A DNA stretch of 64,000 nucleotides from Dechloromonas sp. HYN0024 (GTDB taxonomy: Bacteria > Pseudomonadota > Gammaproteobacteria > Burkholderiales > Rhodocyclaceae). The stretch is from the NCBI RefSeq assembly GCF_003441615.1, contig NZ_CP031842.1, forward strand, positions 496,001 through 560,000. Reading direction: 5' to 3'. The notes beneath the pieces were generated by a model that saw only the letters and a program-made list of their open reading frames with translations, had not been told where the DNA came from and did not search any database. Every line of letters starts with the position of its first letter. Position 1 is the first letter of the stretch. Both the position numbers and the translations under genes were made by a program. Shown here piece by piece: positions 1-17,047 of this stretch.

Positions 1-2358
1 TGGCGGGCCAGCGCCGGTTTTGATCTGGGCTGGGAAATGGACGAATTGCCTAACGTTCGCGACGAGATCCTGCATCTGCCCGACAGTCCCATCGATGTCC
101 TGCTGGAAGAGCTGCCCCGGCTGCTACCCGATGCAGGCCAGTGGTATGGCTATCTCGAACGTCTGGCGCTCGAGCTGCCGGGCTGGTCCGGGATGTTTCT
201 CTGGCGTGACCGCAACCCCGGATTCGCGGAAGGTGTTCCGGTGGCGATGCTCGACTTTCTCGCCGTGCGCGTCCTCCTCGAACGCCTGCTCTGTGAGGAT
301 TTGCTGCGTCGACTGACCGGTGGACCGCTGGCGCTGGCTGACTTGCCTGACTACTATGCGGCGCGTCCGGAAGAGTTTGTCGTCCGCGCCGCCCGGCACC
401 AGTCCTGGCTCCCCGAAGCCATGCAGGGGCAGGCTGCCTACCTCGTCGATCTGTCCCGCAGCGGCCACGTGGCGCGTGATGCCTGGCAGGAACTGGCCGA
501 GGTGATCGCTCCGGTCATGCGCCAGGCGCAGGCCGGTGATTCGGCCTGGCGAATGGCCGCCCTGAGTCGCCAGCTGGGCTTGACGCTGGTAGACCTTGAG
601 GCGCTCGGCAGCGCTGCGGCAGCCACACTGCGGTCCTGTGCCGACAGTTTGACGCCGATGCAGCGAGGTCAGATATGGCTGCTTGCCTACGAGCGCCACT
701 ACCGCCAGCAACTTTTTGCTGCACTCACCGCCAATCATGGTCGCCAGGACGCCGTAGCCAGACCGTCGGCCCAGGTCGTCATGTGCATGGATGATCGTGA
801 GGAGGGGACCCGCCGGCATCTCGAGGAGATCGCGCCGGATATTGCCACCTATGGCGCCGCCGGCTTTTTTGGCGTGCCGATCTACTGGCAGGGGCTCGAC
901 GATGCGGTGCCGACGGCACTCTGTCCGATCGTCGTGCGACCTACTCAACTGGTACGGGAACAAGGGGAGGCTGGGACTGAAATTGTGCAGGGTCAGCGTG
1001 CCGCCCGTCGCGAGCGACGCCTGCTCTGGCGTGAAAGTTTCTATCAGGCGACGCGCCGCCGGGCGGTGGCCGGGCCATTGCTGACCGCGTTGGGCAGTCT
1101 GCCGGCTGTGGCATCGCTGGCGGCGGTCACGCTGGCGCCCGGCTGGTTTGGTGAAACGGTACGGCGCTGGCGCGAGCAATATGATGGCCGACTGCCGACC
1201 CGGCTGGCGATGACCGCCGAGCAGGCGGTGGCGGCCACCCCCGAGCAGCCCCAGGCAGGACTCACCGACGCCGAGCAGGTCGGCCGGGTTGACGCTTTTC
1301 TGCGCATGATCGGCCTGACCACCGATTTCGCTCCGCTGGTCCTGATTTTTGGGCACGGCTCGGGCAGCCAGAACAATCCGCACCTTTCCGCCTATGACTG
1401 CGGGGCTTGCTCCGGCCGGCACGGCGGTCCAAGTGCCCGGGTCTTTGCGGCCATGGCCAATCGGCCCGAGGTGCGCGTCGGGCTGGCTCAACGCGGCATG
1501 CTGATTCCCGAGAGCTGCTGGTTCGTTGCGGCCGAGCACAATACCTGTGACGACGGGGTCGAGTGGTACGACCTTGATACGGTGCCGGAAACGCACCAGC
1601 CAGCGCTCGATACCCTGGTGCATCAGGTATCCGAGGCCTGTCGTGCCCATGCCGCCGAGCGCTGCCGCCGATTGGCCTCGGCCCCTGTTCGGCCGACGCC
1701 CTGGCGGGCTCGTCAGCACGTGCTTGGCCGGGCCAGCGACATTTCCCAGGCCCGGCCGGAACTCGGTCATGCCACCAATGCCGCCGCCTTTGTCGGCCGG
1801 CGCGAGATGAGTCGTGGACTCTTCCTTGACCGCCGGGTCTTCCTGATTTCGTACGATCCGACCACCGACGATGACGGCCGGATCGTCGAAGGCATCCTGC
1901 TCGCGGCGGGGCCCGTCGGTGCCGGCATCGCCCTTGAGTACTATTTCTCGACGGTCGATAACGCGCATTTCGGCTGCGGTTCGAAGATTACCCACAATAT
2001 CACTGGCTTGTTCGGGGTCATGGAGGGGGCCGATTCAGACTTGCGTACCGGCCTGCCCTGGCAGATGGTCGAAATCCACGAGCCGATGCGTTTGCTGGTC
2101 GTCGTCGAACAGACACCGGATGTTCTGACGGCCATCCTGAGTCGTCAGCCACCGCTGCAGGAACTGATCAATAACGAATGGATCATTCTGGCGTCGAAGT
2201 CGCCATTGACCGATGCCATCGCCCAATATTGCCCGCGCCGCGGCTGGTTGCCGTGGTCGGGCAAGGCGGTCCTGCCCCAGGTGGCGCGCTCGGCTGACTG
2301 GTTTGCCGGGGAGTCGGAGGCGATGACGCCGGCGATCATTCTTGGAGCTGTCCGATGA
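1..2358 (+). CDS. dabA: DabA, inorganic carbon transporter subunit (DUF2309), 5'-partial
   Basis: DabA is the soluble, zinc-dependent, carbonic-anhydrase-like subunit of the DAB system. It is thought to convert CO2 to bicarbonate on the cytoplasmic side, driven by ion flow through DabB. The frame is already open at base 1, so the N-terminus lies outside the window; 785 codons are visible. Counted from the first internal Met (base 37), the family's metal/catalytic set is present: Cys250-x-Asp252 in MCMDDREE, His440 in FGHGSGS and Cys455 in DCGACSG. The 15-residue His-Cys spacing equals that of His524/Cys539 in Halothiobacillus DabA2. The stop overlaps the next start as ATGA, so the two genes are translationally coupled. 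Family and active-site residues are seen; carbon uptake in this organism is inferred. Confidence 0.9.
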   Translation, partial: WRASAGFDLGWEMDELPNVRDEILHLPDSPIDVLLEELPRLLPDAGQWYGYLERLALELPGWSGMFLWRDRNPGFAEGVPVAMLDFLAVRVLLERLLCEDLLRRLTGGPLALADLPDYYAARPEEFVVRAARHQSWLPEAMQGQAAYLVDLSRSGHVARDAWQELAEVIAPVMRQAQAGDSAWRMAALSRQLGLTLVDLEALGSAAAATLRSCADSLTPMQRGQIWLLAYERHYRQQLFAALTANHGRQDAVARPSAQVVMCMDDREEGTRRHLEEIAPDIATYGAAGFFGVPIYWQGLDDAVPTALCPIVVRPTQLVREQGEAGTEIVQGQRAARRERRLLWRESFYQATRRRAVAGPLLTALGSLPAVASLAAVTLAPGWFGETVRRWREQYDGRLPTRLAMTAEQAVAATPEQPQAGLTDAEQVGRVDAFLRMIGLTTDFAPLVLIFGHGSGSQNNPHLSAYDCGACSGRHGGPSARVFAAMANRPEVRVGLAQRGMLIPESCWFVAAEHNTCDDGVEWYDLDTVPETHQPALDTLVHQVSEACRAHAAERCRRLASAPVRPTPWRARQHVLGRASDISQARPELGHATNAAAFVGRREMSRGLFLDRRVFLISYDPTTDDDGRIVEGILLAAGPVGAGIALEYYFSTVDNAHFGCGSKITHNITGLFGVMEGADSDLRTGLPWQMVEIHEPMRLLVVVEQTPDVLTAILSRQPPLQELINNEWIILASKSPLTDAIAQYCPRRGWLPWSGKAVLPQVARSADWFAGESEAMTPAIILGAVR

Positions 2359-3881
2359 ACCCAATGCTCGCCCGGCTTCCTGAATGGATCTGGCTGGTCC
2401 CGGTGCTGCCGCTGATGGCGGTGGTCATCAATGGTATCCGTGTTCTGCTCGGCCGGGCGACGGGCGATGCCGCCGAGCCGCTGACGGCCCGCCTGTCCTC
2501 GCTGGCGGCCTTTGGTGGGTTGGTTCTCCTTTTGGCCATTGATGGCATGGCCCTTGTTTACGGGGCCCCCGGGCATCGTCGCCTGGCTCACTGGTTTGGT
2601 AACGGCAATTGGGAGGCCAGCTTCTCGTTCATGCTTGACCCGCTCTCCCTGACGTTGGGTACGCTGACCGCGCTGATCGGCTGGCTGGTCATGCGTTTCT
2701 CGGCCAATTACCTGCATCGCGAAGCCGGCTTTCACCGTTTCTTCCTTGCCCTCAGTTTCTTCCTCGCCGGCATCCAGCTCGTCCTCCTTGCCGGTAACGG
2801 GCTGCTCGCCTTTGTCGGCTGGGAAATGTGCGGCGTTTCATCGTTCCTGCTCATTGGCTACGCCTGGCAGCGGCCGGTGGCGACCGGCAACGCGCTGTTC
2901 GCCTTCGTCACCAATCGCGGCGGCGATGCCGGCTTCCTGCTGGCGCTCGGGCTGGCGGCAACCTGGCTCGGCGGGTTCGAATGGACCCTGCTGGCAAAGG
3001 CTTCGCAGATCAGTGTCGTCAACGACCGCTTGCTGGTCATTGGCTTTGTCATCGCGGCCCTTGCCAAGTCGGCCCAGCTGCCCTTCTCGGCGTGGATCAC
3101 CAAGGCGCTGGAGGGGCCGACCCCATCTTCGGCAATTTTCTACGGCGCGGTAATGGTGCATGCCGGGGTCTATCTGATGCTGCGCCTGGAGCCCCTGCTC
3201 ATTCAGGTGCCCGACGTCATGTTCGGGCTGGTCGTGGCCGGTGCGCTGACGGCGATCTATGCCTGGCTCTGTGGACTGGTGCAGACTGACGTCAAGTCGG
3301 CGCTGATTTTCGCAACCGTTTTTCAGGTTTCGCTGATGTTTGTGTCCATCGGCCTCGGCTGGACGACGCTGGCCCTGGTCCACCTCTGTCTGCACGCCGG
3401 CTGGCGGGTCTGGCAGTTCCTCGTCGCCCCCTCATGGCTGGTCATTACCCGCCAGCGGCCGCCTCCGCCGCCGGCTTGGCTGCGCCAGAATCAGCTGTTG
3501 TATACCATCGCCCTGCAACGTTTCTGGCTCGACAAGCTGTCGCAGACGCTGCTAGTCGAGCCGACCCAGTCCTTTGCCCGTGATGTGCGGGCCCTCGAGG
3601 AGCAATTCATCGATCACGCCATCGGTCAGCCCGGGTGCGGCAAGCCGATCCATGCCGAGCGGCCGCTGGTCCTTGCCGACGGTTTGCCGGGGCGCCTCCT
3701 GGCGGCGCTATCCGATGTCCTGCAGCATATCGAATATCGCCTGCTGCTGCGCGGCAAGGGCGGTACGGCCGAGAAACTGATGCACCGGGCTGGCGCCTAC
3801 CTGCGGACACTGGAAAACCTTCTTGAACAGCCGCGCTATCTGATGATGGCGGTCATGGCGACTTTCGTGGTGATTCTCTGA
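2355..3881 (+). CDS. dabB: DabB-like, NuoL/Mrp-type ion-translocating membrane subunit
   Basis: A 508-aa polytopic membrane protein of the proton-conducting antiporter family (PF00361), the usual partner of DabA. Residues 1 to about 345 form the NuoL-like bundle, with the conserved LPFSAWITKALEGPTP loop and MVHAGVYLMLR helix. At the place where NuoL/DabB proteins have HAxxKAxxFL, this one reads LHAGWRVWQFL, giving Arg351 instead of the conserved Lys. The usual last helices are then replaced by a proline run (369-373), a soluble segment of roughly 120 residues and one final hydrophobic helix. The start ATG at 2355 overlaps the dabA stop; the stop overlaps the next gene as TGATG. Assignment as DabB rests on position next to dabA and fold; the C-terminal part is unusual. 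Confidence 0.8.
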   Translation: MNPMLARLPEWIWLVPVLPLMAVVINGIRVLLGRATGDAAEPLTARLSSLAAFGGLVLLLAIDGMALVYGAPGHRRLAHWFGNGNWEASFSFMLDPLSLTLGTLTALIGWLVMRFSANYLHREAGFHRFFLALSFFLAGIQLVLLAGNGLLAFVGWEMCGVSSFLLIGYAWQRPVATGNALFAFVTNRGGDAGFLLALGLAATWLGGFEWTLLAKASQISVVNDRLLVIGFVIAALAKSAQLPFSAWITKALEGPTPSSAIFYGAVMVHAGVYLMLRLEPLLIQVPDVMFGLVVAGALTAIYAWLCGLVQTDVKSALIFATVFQVSLMFVSIGLGWTTLALVHLCLHAGWRVWQFLVAPSWLVITRQRPPPPPAWLRQNQLLYTIALQRFWLDKLSQTLLVEPTQSFARDVRALEEQFIDHAIGQPGCGKPIHAERPLVLADGLPGRLLAALSDVLQHIEYRLLLRGKGGTAEKLMHRAGAYLRTLENLLEQPRYLMMAVMATFVVIL

Positions 3882-5392
3882 TGGGCAGCGGAATGGGTTC
3901 ACTAAGCGAAATTTTCTGGAACGAGCAGGCCGAACTGCCACTACTCCTCTTCCTGCAACTTCTTCCCCTGTTTGGCGCGGCTGTGGTCTATGCCTTCAAC
4001 GAGCGGCGCACGGCGGTCACCCTTGGCAAGGTCTTTGCGCTGGCTGAACTGCTGCTCTGCATCGTCGTCGTCAGTCATCTCGATCCCTTGCGGCCGGCCC
4101 TGCAACTGGCCGAACGCTTCGCGCCCCTGGCCTACCATGTGGCGGTAGATGGCCTGAGCCTGCTCTTTTTGCTGCTCGCTGCCCTGCTTACCTTTCTCAT
4201 GACCCTGTATGGCATGAGTCGCGGCATGATCTCGCCGGGGCGACTGTTTGCTGTCCTCTTGCTGGCCGAAGCTGGACTGGTCGGGATGCTGGTGACGGTG
4301 AACGTGGCGTGGTTTTCTGCTTTTTCGGCGCTTGAGCTGTGGTCGGTGGTCTACCTGTTGCGGCGCTGGGCTTCGTCGCGGGCCGAAATTCATGCACTGG
4401 CCCGCTTTGTCCAGTACCAGTCGTTTGGTTGGGTACTCTTTGCCGCCGGTTGCGTCGTGCTCGGCTGGGGCCATGCCGAGGCGACGGGCGGATACTGGAG
4501 TTTCGATCTCTTCGATCTGGTCGGCGCCGTTCCGGTCGGCAAGTTCCAGACGGCGGCCTTCTACTTGCTGTTCTACGGACTGGCCGTTCGTACACCGCTC
4601 TTTCCGCTGCATGGCTGGTTGCCCAACATGGCGCAGCACGGGTTGATCGCCGTCGCCCCTGCGCTCATGGTCGGCGTCAAGGTCGGCATTTACGGGATGA
4701 TGCGTTTTGTCCTACCGCTGACGCCGGCGGCGGTCCAGTATTGGCAGCCGTATGTCGTCGGCTTCGCCATGGCCGGGGTCTTTTTCACGGCGGCGCTCGC
4801 TTTCCAGCAGAGCAATTTGCGCCGCCTGCTGGCTTTCGCCGTGGTCAGTCACACCAGTCTGCTGGTTATCGGCCTGTTCAGCCTGCATGAGTCGGGGATT
4901 CAGGGGGCCATGCTGCTGGCCGCCAACTTCGGGCTGGCGGTGACCGGCATGTGGTTCATCGTCGGCTTTGTCTTCCGGCGCACCGGGACGACCGAACTAC
5001 ACGAACTGTCCGGCCTGTTCGAGCGCATTCCTTTCCTCGCCATCGCTTTCCTGAGTTTTGGTCTGGCCATCGTTGGTATGCCGGGGACGCCGGGTTTCGA
5101 TGCGGCACACCTCATACTTGAGGCGTCGATCGATACCTTCGGGGCACTGTCTACTGTCGCAACCGCCCTCGGCAATGTCGCCGCTGCCGGCTTCCTGCTC
5201 TGGGCTTTCCAGAAGGCCTTTCTGTCACAGGCCAAAGCGGGCGGGCACGATGTGGACCGGACGCAGATCATGGAATATCTGGTCTGCGGCATTGCTCTGG
5301 TAGCCATGCTGGCGATTGGATTTTTTACCGAGCCCTGGCTGTATCTGACCGAAACGGCCAGTCAGACGGCTGCCGCGAGGTTTGTAAAATGA
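3881..5392 (+). CDS. NuoM-like proton-conducting membrane subunit (first paralogue)
   Basis: A 503-aa multi-spanning protein of the complex I subunit 4 (NuoM/ND4) and Mrp antiporter family. It shows the hallmark FPLHGWLPNM loop, a GVKVGIYGMMRF helix and a GMPGTPGF helix break. The charged residues of the NuoM channel can be placed. Glu152 (ALELWSV) matches E. coli Glu144 and Lys267 matches Lys265. The Lys234 site is Arg237 (AVRTPLF) and the Glu407 site is Ala409. It is therefore a modified channel subunit. The start at 3881 shares one base with the upstream stop (TGATG); an alternative Met at 3893 lacks this coupling. It probably sits in a complex with DabA and its two membrane neighbours rather than in respiratory complex I, because no other nuo gene is present. 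Confidence 0.75.
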   Translation: MGSGMGSLSEIFWNEQAELPLLLFLQLLPLFGAAVVYAFNERRTAVTLGKVFALAELLLCIVVVSHLDPLRPALQLAERFAPLAYHVAVDGLSLLFLLLAALLTFLMTLYGMSRGMISPGRLFAVLLLAEAGLVGMLVTVNVAWFSAFSALELWSVVYLLRRWASSRAEIHALARFVQYQSFGWVLFAAGCVVLGWGHAEATGGYWSFDLFDLVGAVPVGKFQTAAFYLLFYGLAVRTPLFPLHGWLPNMAQHGLIAVAPALMVGVKVGIYGMMRFVLPLTPAAVQYWQPYVVGFAMAGVFFTAALAFQQSNLRRLLAFAVVSHTSLLVIGLFSLHESGIQGAMLLAANFGLAVTGMWFIVGFVFRRTGTTELHELSGLFERIPFLAIAFLSFGLAIVGMPGTPGFDAAHLILEASIDTFGALSTVATALGNVAAAGFLLWAFQKAFLSQAKAGGHDVDRTQIMEYLVCGIALVAMLAIGFFTEPWLYLTETASQTAAARFVK

Positions 5393-6843
5393 CCCCGGCG
5401 CTCCTTTCCCTGCTCATTTTTCTGCCGCTCGTTAGCGGGCTCATGCTCTGGCTGCTGCCGGCCAGGGTGACGCGCCATCTGGTCGCCGTCAGCATGCTGA
5501 CGACGCTCCTTCTGGCAACCGCCGTGTTGTTCGCCTACGACCCGGCAGGGGCGCGTTTCCAGTTGATTGAACGAGCGTCCTGGGTGAGCAGTCTGAATAT
5601 TCATTACCAGGTCGGGATTGATGGCATTTCGGTGCTCTTTCTGCCGGCCACGGCGCTCCTTTTTCTGGCTTCGCTGGTGGCTGGCTGGAATGCGGTTGAG
5701 GACGCCCCGCGCCTGCATTACAGCCTGTTGTTGCTGCTTCAGTCGGCGACGCTGGGCGTTTTCTGTGCCCTGGATACAGCCTTGTTCTTTGTCTTCTGGG
5801 AGCTGACGCTGGTCCCCCTTTACTTCCTCCTCGGTCGTTGGGGGGGCTGCTCTGGGGGCGGCGCGGCGGCACGCTATTTTCTTATTATGCTGGCCGGTGG
5901 CATTCCCTTGCTCATTGCCTTTGTCATGCTTGCCGCCAGCCAGCCGGTGCCAAGCTTTGACCTGCTTGCCCTCTTCGGCATGCCGCTCCCCCGGCCTACC
6001 CAGACCGCAGTTTTCCTCCTCTGCCTGCTTGGTTTTGGCGTCAAGGTGCCGCTGGTGCCACTGCATACCTGGTTGCCGCAATTTGCCCTGGCGGCACCCG
6101 GCTCACTGACGGCGCTTCTTGTCGGGGTCAAGCTGGGGGTCTTCGGGCTGATTCGTTTTGCCGTCCCGCTGGCACCCGAGGCGGCCATTGATCTGCACTG
6201 GCTCCTCGCTGGTCTGGGTACGGTGGCCATTCTCTATGGTGCGGTCGGCATGCTGGCCCAGAGCAACCTGCGCGTTGGTCTGGCTTATGCGAGTATCTGT
6301 CACGTTGGCCTGGCGGTCCTCGGGCTGGCCTCGTTCTCGGCGCAGGCGGTGCAGGGGGCGGTGTCCCTGCTGCTCAGTTTTTCAGTGGCTTCGGGTGGGG
6401 CTTTCATCCTGCTCGAATTTTTGCGCCAGCGCACCGGTTCGACCGATATTCATGCCCTGGGCGGGGCGGCCAGAACCATGCCCCTGCTCGCCAGCGGATT
6501 CCTGATCTGCGGACTGGCCGGGGTTGGCATGCCGGGAACGAGTAGTTTCCCTGGCGAATTCATGCTCATCATTGCCGCTCTGCAAAGTCACACCGGGGCC
6601 GGCATGGCGGCATTGTTCGGGTTGTCGATCGCTGCTGGCGGCTTTTTGTCGCTTTACCGAAAGGCCTTTTTTGGCCCGGTTACCCGGCCGGGTGTTGCTG
6701 ATGCCAGCGATCTTCGGCCCCGCGAATGGGCCGTGCTGGTGGCATTGATCGTGATGATCGTTGGCATCGGGGTGTACCCCGGGCCATGGATTGAAATTGT
6801 CAGGCCCGCCGCCGAGCTCTGGGCGGCCGGGTTACTGCGCTGA
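5389..6843 (+). CDS. NuoM-like proton-conducting membrane subunit (second paralogue)
   Basis: A 484-aa membrane protein of the NuoM/ND4 family and last gene of the dab operon. Unlike the preceding paralogue it keeps the full set of channel residues: Glu138 (FWELTLVPLYF), Lys219 (GVKVPLVPLHTWLP), Lys248 (GVKLGVFGLIRF) and Glu390 (SFPGEFMLI), corresponding to Glu144, Lys234, Lys265 and Glu407 of E. coli NuoM. That suggests a working ion pathway. The start ATG overlaps the previous stop as ATGA. It ends 12 bp from the stop of the convergent yjdM gene. Likely role (inferred): ion-conducting partner of DabA/DabB. Confidence 0.78.
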   Translation: MTPALLSLLIFLPLVSGLMLWLLPARVTRHLVAVSMLTTLLLATAVLFAYDPAGARFQLIERASWVSSLNIHYQVGIDGISVLFLPATALLFLASLVAGWNAVEDAPRLHYSLLLLLQSATLGVFCALDTALFFVFWELTLVPLYFLLGRWGGCSGGGAAARYFLIMLAGGIPLLIAFVMLAASQPVPSFDLLALFGMPLPRPTQTAVFLLCLLGFGVKVPLVPLHTWLPQFALAAPGSLTALLVGVKLGVFGLIRFAVPLAPEAAIDLHWLLAGLGTVAILYGAVGMLAQSNLRVGLAYASICHVGLAVLGLASFSAQAVQGAVSLLLSFSVASGGAFILLEFLRQRTGSTDIHALGGAARTMPLLASGFLICGLAGVGMPGTSSFPGEFMLIIAALQSHTGAGMAALFGLSIAAGGFLSLYRKAFFGPVTRPGVADASDLRPREWAVLVALIVMIVGIGVYPGPWIEIVRPAAELWAAGLLR

Positions 6844-6855
6844 GGCGGCCAGGTT

Positions 6856-7194
6856 TCAGGCCTTCTTGACGAACTCCGACTTGAGCTGCATGGCACCGAT
6901 GCCGTCGATCTTGCAGTCGATGTCGTGGTCGCCGTCGATCAGGCGGATGTTCTTGACCTTTGTGCCGACCTTGACGACCGACGACGAGCCCTTGATTTTT
7001 AGGTCTTTGATGACGGTGACCGAGTCGCCATCTTGCAGTACGTTGCCGTTGGCATCCTTCCAGACGCGGACCTGCTCGGCGCTTTCGCCGGCCTCCTTGC
7101 TCCACTCGTGGGCGCATTCCGGGCAGACATAGTTGCTGCCGTCTTCGTAGGTGTATTCCGATTTGCACTTCGGACAGTTCGGCAAGCCGCTCAT
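6856..7194 (-). CDS. yjdM: YjdM/PhnA family zinc-ribbon protein
   Basis: A 112-aa cytoplasmic protein of the PhnA/YjdM family. The N-terminus carries a zinc ribbon (CPKC at 8-11 and CPEC at 24-27), followed by the small beta-barrel PhnA domain with the sequences VWKDANGN and DGDSV. Despite the PhnA name, this family is not phosphonoacetate hydrolase and its role is not settled. The start codon follows an AAGGA ribosome-binding site. The gene lies only 12 bp downstream of sulP on the same strand, so the two are probably co-transcribed. Full length for the family (about 111-113 aa). Confidence 0.88.
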
Positions 7195-7206
7195 GGGTTT
7201 TCCTTA

Positions 7207-8898
7207 TTAATAGTCTTCTTCAAAGCCGCCCATCAGGTTGGGCAGCAGGATAGTGGCGCGTTTGAGGGCGTCCGATAGATCGGGGCAAACATTGTCATCG
7301 CCCAGGTGGTCGATGAAGCCCGAACGATACAGCAGCGAGCCAGGTTGCGAATTAAGGCCGCTGACGATCAGTGTGCAGCCGCGTTTCAAGAGCTTGTCGC
7401 GGAGATTCTCGAGGCCTTCGAGTCCGGTGGTGTCGAGTTGAATGAGGCGGCTCATGTCGAGGACGACGACTTCCGGGTGCCCTTCGCGGGGATCGAGCAG
7501 TTCTTCGAGTTTATTGACTGCACCGAAGAACAGTGAGCCGAATAGTTGCCAGGCAGCGACGCGCATGGTGCCATCCGGATAGAGAAACTGCGGTTCGTCG
7601 GCCTCCTCCGTCAGCGGCAGGCGCTCGATCCTGGTCAGTTCCGACATCCGGTAGATGAAGAACAGGCTGGCCAGCACCATGCCGAGTTCAACGGCGATGG
7701 TCAGGTCGAAGACGACGGTGACAAAAAAGGTGGCGAGCAGAATGACCCGATAGTTGTAGGAGTAGCGCCGCAGTTCGAGAAACTGGTGCCATTCACCCAT
7801 ATTGATGGCGACCACCATGACGATCGCCGACAGCGTAGCCAGTGGCACGTAGGAGGCGAGTGGGGCGGCGATGAGGACGACGCCGAGCAGGACGAAAGCG
7901 TGGATGATGCCGGAAATCGGCGTCCGCCCGCCGGTTTTTACGTTGGTGGTGGTGCGGGCGATGGCCCCGGTCGCCGCGAAGCCGCCGAACAGAGGCGCAG
8001 CGATATTGGCGAGGCCCTGGGCGATGAGTTCCTGGTTGGGGTCGTGACGGTCGTCAATCTGGCTGTCGGCTACGCGGGCCGAGAGCAGCGACTCAATGGC
8101 ACCCAGCAGGGCGATGGTAATGGCGGGCGAGATCAGCTTGCCGAAATCGTGGATCGAGAGATTGGGCAGGCCGAAATCAGGCAGCTCCTGAGGGATGCCG
8201 TGGAAGCGGCTGCCGATGGTTTCAACCGGCAGGTCGAACAGGAAGGATACCAGCGTGCCGACAATGAGTACGACGAGTGGCCCCGGTGCGCGGCGCATCA
8301 ACGCAAAACGCTGGGCCAGTCGGTTGTAGGAGAGCAGAAAGACGAAACAGACGGAAGCCAGACCGAGGGTCGGCAGGTCGACGGTGTCGGCATACGCTGC
8401 CAAGGTTTTGATGCGATGGAAAAATTCAGCCGGCAGATTGTCGATTTGCAGCCCAAAGAAATCCTTGATCTGGGCGAGGAAGATGACGACGGCGATGCCG
8501 TTGGTGAAGCCGATGACGACGGTAACCGGAATGAAGCGGATCAGTTGACCCATGCGGGCCAGGCCCATGGCGAGCAGGAAGATGCCGGCGAGGATGGTGG
8601 CACCCATCAGGTTGGCGAAGCCATGGATGGCAACGATGCCATAGATGATAGGGATGAAGGCGCCGGTCGGTCCGCCAATCTGTACCCGCGAGCCGCCCAG
8701 GGCCGAAATGATCAGGCCGGCGACGATGGCCGTCCAGATGCCGGCGGTCGGCGAGCAGCCGGAAGCGATAGCGAAAGCCATGGCCAGTGGCAGGGCGAGA
8801 ACGCCGACGGTAATGCCGGCCGCGATATCCTTGCCGAGTTGCGCGCGCGTATAAGTGGGCAGGCAATCGAGCAGCTTTGGGTGGAAGGCGATTTTCAT
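7207..8898 (-). CDS. SulP-family inorganic anion transporter with STAS domain
   Basis: An inner-membrane secondary transporter of the SulP/SLC26 family, 563 aa from the ATG at 8898; a GTG nine bases upstream (8907) is possible, and neither has a strong ribosome-binding site. The N-terminal signature (SPTAGIWTAIVAG, then GGSRVQIGGPTGAF) and about a dozen hydrophobic segments are followed by a cytoplasmic STAS domain (roughly 440-545: VVVLDMSRLIQLDTTGLEGL). Members carry sulfate, bicarbonate (BicA) or dicarboxylates; sequence alone does not tell which. Its position beside the DAB operon makes bicarbonate a reasonable guess. It leads a two-gene operon with yjdM and is divergent from the RHH regulator. 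Confidence 0.88.
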   Translation of the reverse strand: MKIAFHPKLLDCLPTYTRAQLGKDIAAGITVGVLALPLAMAFAIASGCSPTAGIWTAIVAGLIISALGGSRVQIGGPTGAFIPIIYGIVAIHGFANLMGATILAGIFLLAMGLARMGQLIRFIPVTVVIGFTNGIAVVIFLAQIKDFFGLQIDNLPAEFFHRIKTLAAYADTVDLPTLGLASVCFVFLLSYNRLAQRFALMRRAPGPLVVLIVGTLVSFLFDLPVETIGSRFHGIPQELPDFGLPNLSIHDFGKLISPAITIALLGAIESLLSARVADSQIDDRHDPNQELIAQGLANIAAPLFGGFAATGAIARTTTNVKTGGRTPISGIIHAFVLLGVVLIAAPLASYVPLATLSAIVMVVAINMGEWHQFLELRRYSYNYRVILLATFFVTVVFDLTIAVELGMVLASLFFIYRMSELTRIERLPLTEEADEPQFLYPDGTMRVAAWQLFGSLFFGAVNKLEELLDPREGHPEVVVLDMSRLIQLDTTGLEGLENLRDKLLKRGCTLIVSGLNSQPGSLLYRSGFIDHLGDDNVCPDLSDALKRATILLPNLMGGFEEDY

Positions 8899-8944
8899 GC
8901 GGCGCACTCAGTAGATGAGCGAAGCATTATATGAGCGCCTAATT

Positions 8945-14818: not shown

Positions 14819-17047
14819 ATGCGCTTCCACTTTCCCGTCATCATCATCGACGAAGACTTTCGCTCGGAAAATACCTCCGGCCTCGGTATCCGGGCGCTGG
14901 CCGAAGCCATTGAAAAGGAAGGTCTGGAAGTACTTGGCGTTACCAGCTACGGCGATCTGACCTCATTTGCCCAGCAGCAGAGTCGCGCCTCGGCCTTTAT
15001 CCTGTCGATTGATGACGAGGAGCTGGCACTCGAGCCGGAGGAGACGCTGGCCGAACTGCGCGCCTTTGTTGGCGAGATTCGCAACCGGAACGCCGAAATT
15101 CCCATCTTCCTGCATGGTGAGACGCGCACCTCGCGCCACATCCCGAATGATGTGCTGCGCGAACTGCATGGTTTCATCCATATGTTCGAGGACACGCCGG
15201 AATTCATCGCCCGCAACGTCAAGCGCGAGGCCAAGGCCTACCTCGCTTCGCTGCCGCCGCCGTTCTTCCGGGCGCTGGTCCATTACGCGGCAGACGGCTC
15301 ATATTCCTGGCATTGCCCGGGCCACTCGGGCGGTGTTGCGTTCCTGAAGTCGCCGGTGGGCCAGATGTTCCACCAGTTCTTCGGCGAGAACATGCTGCGC
15401 GCCGACGTCTGCAATGCCGTCGAGGAACTCGGCCAGTTGCTCGATCATACCGGGCCGGTTGCCGCCTCCGAGCGCAACGCGGCGCGCATTTTCAACTCCG
15501 ATCATCTCTATTTTGTCACCAACGGCACGTCGACCTCGAACAAGATCGTCTGGCACTCGACCGTCGCGCCGGGTGACATCGTCGTTGTCGACCGCAACTG
15601 TCACAAGTCCATCCTGCACGCCATCATGATGACCGGGGCGATCCCCGTTTTCCTGATGCCGACGCGCAACAATTTCGGCATCATCGGGCCGATCCCGAAA
15701 TCGGAATTCCTCTGGGAGAACATCCAGAAGAAGATTGCCGCCAATCCTTTCATCACCGACAAGACGGCCAAGCCGCGCGTCCTGACCATCACCCAGTCGA
15801 CCTACGATGGCATTCTCTACAACGTCGAGGACATCAAGGCCGAACTCGACGGCAAAATCGACACCCTGCATTTCGATGAAGCCTGGCTGCCGCATGCCGC
15901 CTTCCACGATTTTTATGGCGACTACCACGCCATCGGCGCCGACCGCCCGCGCTGCAAGGAGTCGATGGTCTTCTCGACGCAATCGACGCACAAGCTGCTG
16001 GCCGGTCTGAGCCAGGCCTCGCAGATTCTCGTTCAGGATGCCGAGAACCAGAAGCTCGACCGCGACATCTTCAACGAAGCCTATCTGATGCACACCTCGA
16101 CTTCGCCCCAGTACTCGATCATCGCCTCCTGCGATGTCGCAGCGGCGATGATGGAGGAGCCGGCTGGTACAGCGCTGGTTGAAGAGTCGATCACCGAAGC
16201 GCTCGATTTCCGTCGCGCCATGCGCAAGGTGGACGAGGAATGGGGCGCCGACTGGTGGTTCAAGGTCTGGGGGCCGGACGACCTGTCGGAAGAAGGCATC
16301 GAGGAACGCGAAGCCTGGATGCTCAAGCCGGGCGAACGCTGGCACGGCTTCAACAATCTGGCCGACGGCTTCAACATGCTCGACCCGATTAAGGCGACCA
16401 TCATCACCCCGGGCCTCGATGTCGACGGTGATTTTGCCGACGAATTCGGTATCCCGGCCGCTATCGTCACCAAGTACCTCGCCGAGCATGGCGTCATCGT
16501 CGAGAAGTGTGGACTCTACAGCTTCTTCATCATGTTCACCATCGGCATCACCAAGGGCCGCTGGAACACCCTGGTGACTGCCCTGCAACAGTTCAAGGAC
16601 GATTACGACAAGAATCATCCGCTGTGGAAGGTGCTGCCCGAGTTCGTGCAGAAGAACCCGCGCTACGAGCGCGTCGGCCTGCGCGACCTGTGTACCGAGA
16701 TTCACAGCGTTTACAAGCAGAACGACGTGGCCCGCCTGACCACTGAAATGTACCTTTCGGACATGGTGCCGGCCATGCGTCCGGCTGATGCCTTCGCCAA
16801 GATGGCGCACCGGGACATCGAGCGCGTGCCGGTGGACGAACTTGAAGGCCGCGTCACGGCAGTGCTCCTGACGCCGTACCCGCCGGGTATTCCGCTCCTC
16901 ATTCCGGGTGAGCGTTTCAATGCCAAGATCTGCAACTACCTGAAATTCGCCCGCGAATTCAATGCCACCTTCCCTGGCTTCGAGACCGACGTGCATGGCC
17001 TCGTCAAGGGTGCCGACGGTCGCTATTTCGTCGATTGCGTGCGCTGA
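14819..17047 (+). CDS. Orn/Lys/Arg family PLP-dependent amino acid decarboxylase
   Basis: A 742-aa fold-type I decarboxylase of the large bacterial ornithine/lysine/arginine family (AdiA, CadA, SpeF type). It releases CO2 from a basic amino acid to give a polyamine precursor. An N-terminal receiver-like wing domain (about 1-130) is followed by the PLP core with the Schiff-base Lys392 in STQSTHKLLAG, the TSTSPQYS motif and a C-terminal domain. The exact substrate cannot be read from the sequence; close betaproteobacterial relatives are called arginine or lysine decarboxylase. It follows dcd on the same strand and no antiporter gene is next to it, unlike acid-resistance operons. Confidence 0.9.
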   Translation: MRFHFPVIIIDEDFRSENTSGLGIRALAEAIEKEGLEVLGVTSYGDLTSFAQQQSRASAFILSIDDEELALEPEETLAELRAFVGEIRNRNAEIPIFLHGETRTSRHIPNDVLRELHGFIHMFEDTPEFIARNVKREAKAYLASLPPPFFRALVHYAADGSYSWHCPGHSGGVAFLKSPVGQMFHQFFGENMLRADVCNAVEELGQLLDHTGPVAASERNAARIFNSDHLYFVTNGTSTSNKIVWHSTVAPGDIVVVDRNCHKSILHAIMMTGAIPVFLMPTRNNFGIIGPIPKSEFLWENIQKKIAANPFITDKTAKPRVLTITQSTYDGILYNVEDIKAELDGKIDTLHFDEAWLPHAAFHDFYGDYHAIGADRPRCKESMVFSTQSTHKLLAGLSQASQILVQDAENQKLDRDIFNEAYLMHTSTSPQYSIIASCDVAAAMMEEPAGTALVEESITEALDFRRAMRKVDEEWGADWWFKVWGPDDLSEEGIEEREAWMLKPGERWHGFNNLADGFNMLDPIKATIITPGLDVDGDFADEFGIPAAIVTKYLAEHGVIVEKCGLYSFFIMFTIGITKGRWNTLVTALQQFKDDYDKNHPLWKVLPEFVQKNPRYERVGLRDLCTEIHSVYKQNDVARLTTEMYLSDMVPAMRPADAFAKMAHRDIERVPVDELEGRVTAVLLTPYPPGIPLLIPGERFNAKICNYLKFAREFNATFPGFETDVHGLVKGADGRYFVDCVR

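Follow-up and report, generated by a model that had tools for sequence, protein, structure and literature searches.

Gene organization of the locus

We analyzed a stretch of 64,000 nucleotides from Dechloromonas sp. HYN0024 (the window; bases 496001-560000 of a single-contig 3.26-Mb genome), at whose start lies an operon for a predicted dissolved inorganic carbon (DIC) accumulating complex (DAC) of the DAB family. The gene order is M0-dabA-dabB-M1-M2, corresponding to one DabA and four channel-type PF00361 subunits. The operon is cut by the window edge, and M0 and the 5' end of dabA lie outside. Its genes are the following:

L002 7873-9318 (G000:C1:493873-495318), upstream of the window: M0, NuoM-like PF00361 subunit, 481 amino acids; PF00361 233.7 bits, TIGR01972 472.8 bits
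1..2358, + strand: dabA, class-II DabA (see below), 1012 amino acids in full, of which the 3' 785 codons are inside the window; PF10070 806.5 bits
2355..3881, + strand: dabB, NuoL-like subunit, 508 amino acids; PF00361 108.9 bits, also PF00662
3881..5392, + strand: M1, divergent NuoM-like subunit, 503 amino acids; PF00361 115 bits, TIGR01972 273 bits
5389..6843, + strand: M2, NuoM-like subunit, 484 amino acids; PF00361 169 bits, TIGR01972 409.5 bits

The true start of dabA is found 680 bases ahead of the window (L002 9320), and M0 ends one base ahead of the dabA ATG. Since this further PF00361 gene is located just upstream of dabA, the operon has five genes and not four. The part of dabA inside the window scores 689 bits against PF10070, the full open reading frame (ORF) the 806.5 bits given above, at a curated cut-off of 25. 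M0, M1 and M2 all exceed the TIGR01972 cut-off of 264 bits and are regarded as NuoM-like, and the PF00361 match of DabB covers only the first 221 of 294 model positions. The earlier note had described dabA as being followed by three non-identical NuoL/NuoM-type proteins with overlapping genes. This is borne out by the PF10070 and PF00361 matches, by the junctions read off the sequence (ATGA between dabA and dabB, TGATG between dabB and M1, ATGA between M1 and M2) and by an identity of 32% between M1 and M2; BLAST at an E-value of 1e-3 matched DabB to neither of the two. Seven PF00361 genes occur in the genome, four at the operon (0.49-0.50 Mb) and three at 2.33 Mb on the same contig, the latter being taken as the complex-I references NuoL, NuoM and NuoN. 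The nearest named loci belong to Azonexaceae/Rhodocyclaceae, with DabA up to 82% identical in the best segment.

Occurrence of the five-gene set

To the locus itself we added 77 related loci and 65 stretches from a sample of 398 Pseudomonadota genomes. From these 143 loci 142 were tallied, as one (L056), whose contig begins within dabA, fell out. The tally gave 68 loci of the type M0-A-B-M1-M2 (A, dabA; B, dabB), eight truncated or frame-broken variants of it, 31 two-gene B-A loci, 22 A-B-M loci with a single NuoM-like gene, five A-B loci and eight with dabA only. The 68 five-gene loci pool two sources and correspond to 66 distinct operons, because L048/L156 and L051/L150 are the same operons counted twice. 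In three draft genomes (L013, L029, L149) M1 or M2 is read in two overlapping frames; these loci were excluded from the residue counts.

Within the 398 genomes a PF10070 match is present in 69 and lies over the cut-off in 68. A genome search for dabA with multiple PF00361 genes, as the earlier note had suggested, finds the five-gene set in 36 of these 68. The set is ordered on one contig in 32 genomes (including G145, with M1 spread over two frames and M2 truncated where the contig ends), has the same order but is split by contig ends in two, and has dabA unlinked in the remaining two. The recurrence of the order on one contig in 32 of 36 set-bearing genomes is an argument that the gene arrangement is not due to chance. 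The two genomes with unlinked dabA belong to the family f66, and in this pair a second contig holds M0-M2-B-M1 side by side, away from complex I. In G157 (L138, L191) dabA is found near CheW, cyclophilin and DNA-ligase genes with M0-M2-B-M1 on another contig, and in G161 (L154, L192) dabA is likewise apart from the other four, with M0 cut by the contig end. If the same 398 genomes are searched with M1, strong matches (at least 232 bits) appear in exactly the 36 five-gene genomes. This coincidence of M1 matches and f66 clusters with the set indicates that the five genes are maintained as a unit despite changes in their order.

The remaining 32 dabA genomes contain a two-gene operon in 31 cases and one joined DabB-DabA frame. 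The latter (L130 of G392, 3931-7938, + strand) is a single frame of 1335 amino acids with a NuoL-like N-terminal part followed by DabA, apparently a natural fusion, in a genome without the five-gene set. One genome (G316) possesses both a two-gene B-A and an A-B-M DAC (L121, L179). On a Planctomycetota contig (L081, 9074-16699) an A-B pair adjoins a second dabA on the opposite strand, and no NuoM-like gene was seen nearby. Fusions of membrane subunits were not noticed in the fetched loci, without a dedicated search; over-long frames were read as upstream extensions by the ORF caller.

Residues of DabA and DabB

For the residue counts we used only the loci with the exact arrangement M0-A-B-M1-M2 (68), A-B-M (22) or two-gene B-A (31) among the 142. 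DabA positions are numbered as in the DAB2 chain (PDB 9rd0), and the residue numbers of the Dechloromonas protein were computed from the alignment. Its zinc-site residues 489, 491, 493, 679 and 694 align to C351, D353, R355, H524 and C539 of DAB2 (the codon of C489 being 784-786), and none of the 121 DabAs deviates at the zinc ligands or the Asp-Arg dyad. The predicted model of DabA resembles the beta-carbonic-anhydrase fold; PDB 9rd0 was not among the matches listed (library ending 2026-04-08). With PF10070 over its cut-off, the zinc site and a NuoL-like DabB beside dabA, the locus encodes a predicted DAC/DAB in the broad sense.

The surroundings of the zinc site differ between the arrangements. 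The finger glutamate E444 is Glu in 31/31 two-gene DabAs and in none of the 68 five-gene or 22 three-gene ones. In the five-gene rows its position is taken by Ala (38), Leu (13), Val (5), Ser, Gly, Phe, Pro and Thr (2 each), Asp (1) and Met (1), and it is non-acidic in the Dechloromonas protein. An acidic residue within six columns of it occurs in three of the 68 five-gene and none of the 22 three-gene rows. Position 658 is Leu in all two-gene DabAs (31/31) but His in 68/68 five-gene and 22/22 three-gene ones, in our protein His817 (codon 1768-1770). Position 356 is Ser in 31/31 two-gene and Glu in 68/68 five-gene DabAs; the three-gene rows have Glu in 19 and Cys in 3 of 22. The finger segment is 77-80 residues long in the four class-II rows inspected, compared to 50 in DabA2 and to 51 and 61 in the two rows examined from two-gene loci.

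The dabB product keeps the region of transmembrane helices TM1-11, lacks the NuoL TM12 region and ends in a helical C-terminal tail; the TM12 region is also missing in the 31 aligned two-gene DabBs. DabB2 stands outside the alignments, and its residues I151, R182, D185 and K235 were taken from PMC13144422. The ion pairs of NuoL are kept in class-II DabB, and the NuoL switch glutamate E144 is present in 68/68 five-gene and 22/22 three-gene DabBs, while in the 31 two-gene DabBs its position holds Ile (10), Val (10), Met (3), Ala, Ser, Thr or Leu (2 each), and I151 in DabB2. The His254 and Lys342 of 31/31 two-gene DabBs are Tyr and Arg in 90/90 class-II proteins. After the K342 position a median of 157 residues follows in five-gene, 104.5 in three-gene and 187 in two-gene DabBs. 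The most hydrophobic 19-residue window of this tail reaches 0.2-1.8 in four class-II rows compared to approximately 2.5 in two two-gene rows, so that in the rows inspected class-II DabBs are without the hydrophobic C-terminal helices of two-gene DabBs.

Trees were built by quick searches with Shimodaira-Hasegawa-like approximate likelihood ratio test (SH-aLRT) values as the only support, from 19 of the 68 five-gene, 10 or 12 of the 22 three-gene and 8 or 10 of the 31 two-gene loci, and two of the three-gene M sequences as well as one of the two-gene DabB sequences have very long branches in them. In the DabA tree five-gene, three-gene and two-gene proteins each lie on their own side of a branch, and in the DabB tree the five-gene and three-gene proteins are found together, apart from the two-gene ones.

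As judged from these alignments, the five-gene and the A-B-M operons are a second DAC class (class II). The missing finger glutamate is the reason not to file our operon as a DAB2-type class I system, and the DabB without NuoL E144 that characterizes class I is not what the operon encodes. For DAB2, PMC13144422 describes a complete loss of activity in E444A/Q variants, a leucine (Leu658) in place of the transition-state residue of beta-carbonic anhydrases, and a growth yield that is halved when Glu is restored at the E144 position. Residues needed or typical in DAB2 thus differ in class II, and its proteins cannot work exactly as DAB2 does; the five-gene form probably uses the proton gradient in a way different from the two-protein DAB2. 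While one must keep in mind that the contrast between the classes is one deep split in the trees, which is no statistical proof, it still suggests a mechanism.

The NuoM-like subunits

Channel residues of the NuoM-like subunits are given in Escherichia coli NuoM numbering. M0 keeps E144, K234, K265, H322, H348 and E407 in 68/68 rows. M2 keeps E144, K234, K265, H322 and E407 in all 67 rows counted, one of the 68 being gapped at the scored columns, and has H348 replaced in all 67. M1 has neither E144 nor E407 in any of 68 rows; K234 is Arg in all of them, K265 is kept in all, H322 in 67, and an invariant His follows one residue past the E407 position (68/68). The M protein of the three-gene loci similarly has E144 in 0/22 and Arg for K234 in 22/22, with K265 missing in all 21 scored rows; the E407 position is Glu in two and Asp in two of the 20 scored, and the next position is Glu or Asp in 20/20. 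These M proteins (L055-L086, L179) are fast-evolving, with end branches up to 3.5, and possibly represent a channel-dead partner.

In the tree M1 is sister to the three-gene M (SH-aLRT 93), M2 joins that pair (98), and M0 stands in an unresolved fork with complex-I NuoM. These placements suggest that A-B-M1 represents the older core, to which two NuoM-type channel subunits were added later.

Comparison with known systems

DAB2 of Halothiobacillus neapolitanus (DabA2-DabB2; PDB 9rd0; described in PMC13144422) shares with our operon the PF10070 DabA with an identical zinc site and a NuoL-like DabB in which the NuoL TM12 region is missing, as in the two-gene DabBs. It differs in gene order (B-A in two-gene loci, A-B here) and in DabA length (870 amino acids in the 9rd0 chain, 1012 here). 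In addition to the changes at Glu444, Leu658 and E144 and in the DabB tail (rows inspected), our operon has three NuoM-like partners.

The three-gene A-B-M DACs found here, mostly in Planctomycetota, carry the same class-II fingerprints in DabA and DabB. Their M is the sister of M1, likewise with Arg for K234 and no E144; in contrast to the five-gene set they have no M0 and no M2, and K265 is also lost in M. Schmid et al. in 2021 reportedly tested one-, two- and three-subunit complexes and are said to have found all subunits to be required in the three-subunit ones.

The membrane arm of complex I (NuoL/M/N), including the 2M complex I, belongs to the same PF00361 family, M0 and M2 keep the E144/K234/K265/E407 of NuoM, and DabB keeps the ion pairs of NuoL. 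A carbonic-anhydrase-like subunit would stand here in place of the redox arm. A Pfam scan that covered the operon and the flanking genes given showed no complex-I redox or connector subunit, complex I not being searched gene by gene, and no other family that would correspond to MrpB-MrpG was found among the five genes and scanned neighbours, small ORFs not being scanned one by one. PMC9040806 reports complex I variants that have four or five pumping subunits.

The premise of the earlier note, one DabA and one DabB per DAB system, is incomplete, since NuoM genes beside ybcC/dabA have been in print since 2017. Klimchuk et al (COGNAT, PMC5700660) described NuoM and SulP genes where ybcC/dabA precedes a nuoL-like gene (“clade C”), as is the case here, and suggested by analogy to NDH-1 that multiple ions are transported by multiple membrane subunits. 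In their account the reaction drives ion export, the opposite of the 2026 view of hydration driven by the proton-motive force (PMF), whose direction we take from PMC13144422. The DAB family, its NuoM association and the multi-ion idea are therefore already in print. The clade C account in section 10 of that paper neither counts the NuoM genes nor mentions a fixed five-gene set or residues specific to a class. A five-gene set with four PF00361 subunits was not described in the literature searched, including the consulted parts of PMC10880623, PMC9080137, PMC12628692 and PMC8552792, with supplementary files and the 2021 work of Schmid et al outside the search. Within this scope no account was found of the fixed five-gene set, of its retention in rearranged genomes or of the residue fingerprints of class II.

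Gene neighbourhood and host metabolism

One neighbouring gene is regarded as context outside the complex:

7207..8907, - strand: SulP-family anion transporter, convergent neighbour; PF00916 311 bits and STAS

For this SulP-STAS protein the top-scoring NCBIfam model, DauA, stays below its cut-off, and TIGR00815 is just above its own; the protein could carry bicarbonate. A SulP-like gene was counted in the fetched stretches of 41/76 five-gene, 5/22 three-gene, 2/36 other DabB-bearing and 0/8 dabA-only loci, with unequal flanks (approximately 10 kb or 7 kb) and with 30 of the 41 coming from our locus and its relatives. Both cases among the 36 are A-B loci, leaving 0/31 for the two-gene loci. About 8 kb downstream of the operon (14819-17047, + strand) we further find a CO2-releasing Orn/Lys/Arg decarboxylase gene, which is probably unrelated.

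RuBisCO (PF00016) gave no match in the single-contig Dechloromonas genome. A match occurs in one of the 36 five-gene genomes compared to 5 of the 32 other dabA genomes. RuBisCO-based carbon fixation as the purpose of the operon was thus rejected for this organism and is unlikely in general. With 35 of 36 five-gene genomes lacking a match, supplying the Calvin cycle with DIC is not what these operons have as a shared purpose. An ATP-citrate lyase domain is found in 23 of the 36 five-gene genomes, which suggests a reductive tricarboxylic acid (TCA) cycle in many of these hosts, but not in the Dechloromonas genome, which does encode one separate beta-carbonic anhydrase.

Proposed complex and alternative explanations

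We propose, with a probability of roughly 0.62, that the five genes encode one class-II DAC membrane complex, a carbonic anhydrase that is driven by the PMF and whose membrane arm extends laterally. The proposal draws on gene content and order, co-occurrence, residue patterns and fold predictions; from these we infer that the five proteins share one complex, that CO2 is hydrated and that protons enter via the NuoM-like arm. DabA, as the zinc-carrying beta-carbonic-anhydrase-like subunit, would be seated on DabB, and DabB would be joined sideways to M1, M2 and M0 in the manner of the antiporter-like subunits of complex I. Entering protons would drive CO2 hydration in the cytoplasm in one direction only, towards bicarbonate. 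As the DabA glutamate completing the DAB2 proton path is gone and DabB is shortened but keeps the complex-I ion-pair switch, M1 might take the place of the missing half-channel beside DabB, and M2 (near-complete) and M0 (complete NuoM residue set) might add further proton paths. More protons could then be spent per CO2, which might permit uptake on a weak PMF; this rests on the complex-I analogy of PMC5700660 and the extra-pump variants in PMC9040806. In Dechloromonas, without a RuBisCO match, the bicarbonate may feed ordinary carboxylations.

More tentative, and in our view possible rather than probable, is a generalization of this scheme. Class II would then represent a second mechanism of PMF-driven carbonic anhydrases, in which, with the DabA finger glutamate and the hydrophobic helices at the DabB C-terminus both missing, protons pass through a complex-I-like chain of antiporter subunits and the E144-R175/D178-K229 switch of DabB transmits the push to the zinc site. 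Several protons per CO2 would be used by the five-gene form, in which three NuoL/NuoM-type subunits (DabB, M0 and M2) keep channel residues.

The four-subunit complex that the earlier note had envisaged stands as a defined subunit set, supported by co-occurrence and persistence after rearrangement, but the number is five, and the physical association is deduced from the genes. Its multi-channel, complex-I-like arm agrees with the channel-residue patterns of the subunits, except that M1 is without the NuoM channel residues. Several points weigh against our reading. Assembly into one complex and its activity are predictions from genes, and the residue differences go back to one deep tree split, i.e. 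one evolutionary contrast rather than 121 independent tests. M1, having lost two channel glutamates, may conduct no protons. Past TM11 the model of DabB has low confidence, which leaves the lateral contact unproven. Extra pumping subunits in complex I are accompanied by a longer lateral helix (PMC9040806), and no lateral-helix extension was seen in the 508 residues of DabB. The unlinked dabA in the two f66 genomes also allows for a DabA-independent role of the other four proteins, and the 35 of 36 five-gene genomes without a RuBisCO match count on this side as well.

A rather unlikely alternative is that DabA-DabB-M1 is the working three-subunit complex and that M0 and M2 are a channel module for protons or ions, either separate or optional, that is only co-expressed. 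It would fit the A-B-M operons without M0 or M2 (22 of the 142 tallied loci), the sister relation of M1 to their M with M0 outside that group, and the channel degeneration of M1 but not of M0 and M2. It does not explain why none of the 36 genomes has lost M0 or M2 (in some, only contig-end fragments are seen), nor why M0, M2, B and M1 remain together in f66 although dabA has moved. That DabA and DabB suffice as in DAB2, the NuoM-like genes being dispensable passengers, we consider improbable: the absence of the DAB2 finger glutamate from 68/68 five-gene DabAs and of the hydrophobic C-terminal helices from the class-II DabB rows inspected speaks against it, as does the need for every subunit that Schmid et al. 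reportedly saw in three-subunit complexes, even though the pair is common to five-, three- and two-gene loci and the zinc-site residues are unchanged in 121/121 DabAs.

Slightly harder to maintain is a different chemistry, with the class-II zinc site serving another reaction or sensing. The changed surroundings (His at L658 in 90/90 class-II DabAs, Glu at S356 in 68/68 five-gene and 19/22 three-gene ones) as well as the missing RuBisCO match and the separate beta-carbonic anhydrase of the Dechloromonas genome would agree with this, but the zinc ligands and the Asp-Arg dyad are all kept, SulP genes are frequent neighbours, and the ATP-citrate lyase domain in 23 of 36 hosts suggests a CO2-fixing reductive TCA cycle. 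Finally, M0, M1 and M2 all exceed the TIGR01972 cut-off, and complex I with additional pumps has been reported (PMC9040806), so that the three might instead belong to respiratory complex I as supernumerary pumps, in the manner of the 2M complex I. We give this very little credence, because the NuoL/M/N genes of the genome lie elsewhere, at 2.33 Mb, and M0, M1 and M2 travel with dabB in 36 genomes, even when dabA is unlinked.

The published proton path of DAB2 via the finger Glu444 cannot hold for all DACs. Under the generalized scheme, the five-gene DAC would couple a complex-I-like membrane arm to an enzyme without redox chemistry. How energy is transferred sideways between the antiporter-like subunits of complex I is a long-standing question, made hard by redox chemistry, quinone and a dozen subunits. 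The five-gene DAC would place such an arm on a simple hydration reaction, with five proteins and with natural two-, three- and five-gene relatives. A carbonic-anhydrase-deficient E. coli, the yadF cynT double mutant, has already served for assays of DACs (PMC12628692). Sideways energy transfer might then become testable by counting subunits and by the growth of a carbonic-anhydrase-deficient strain.

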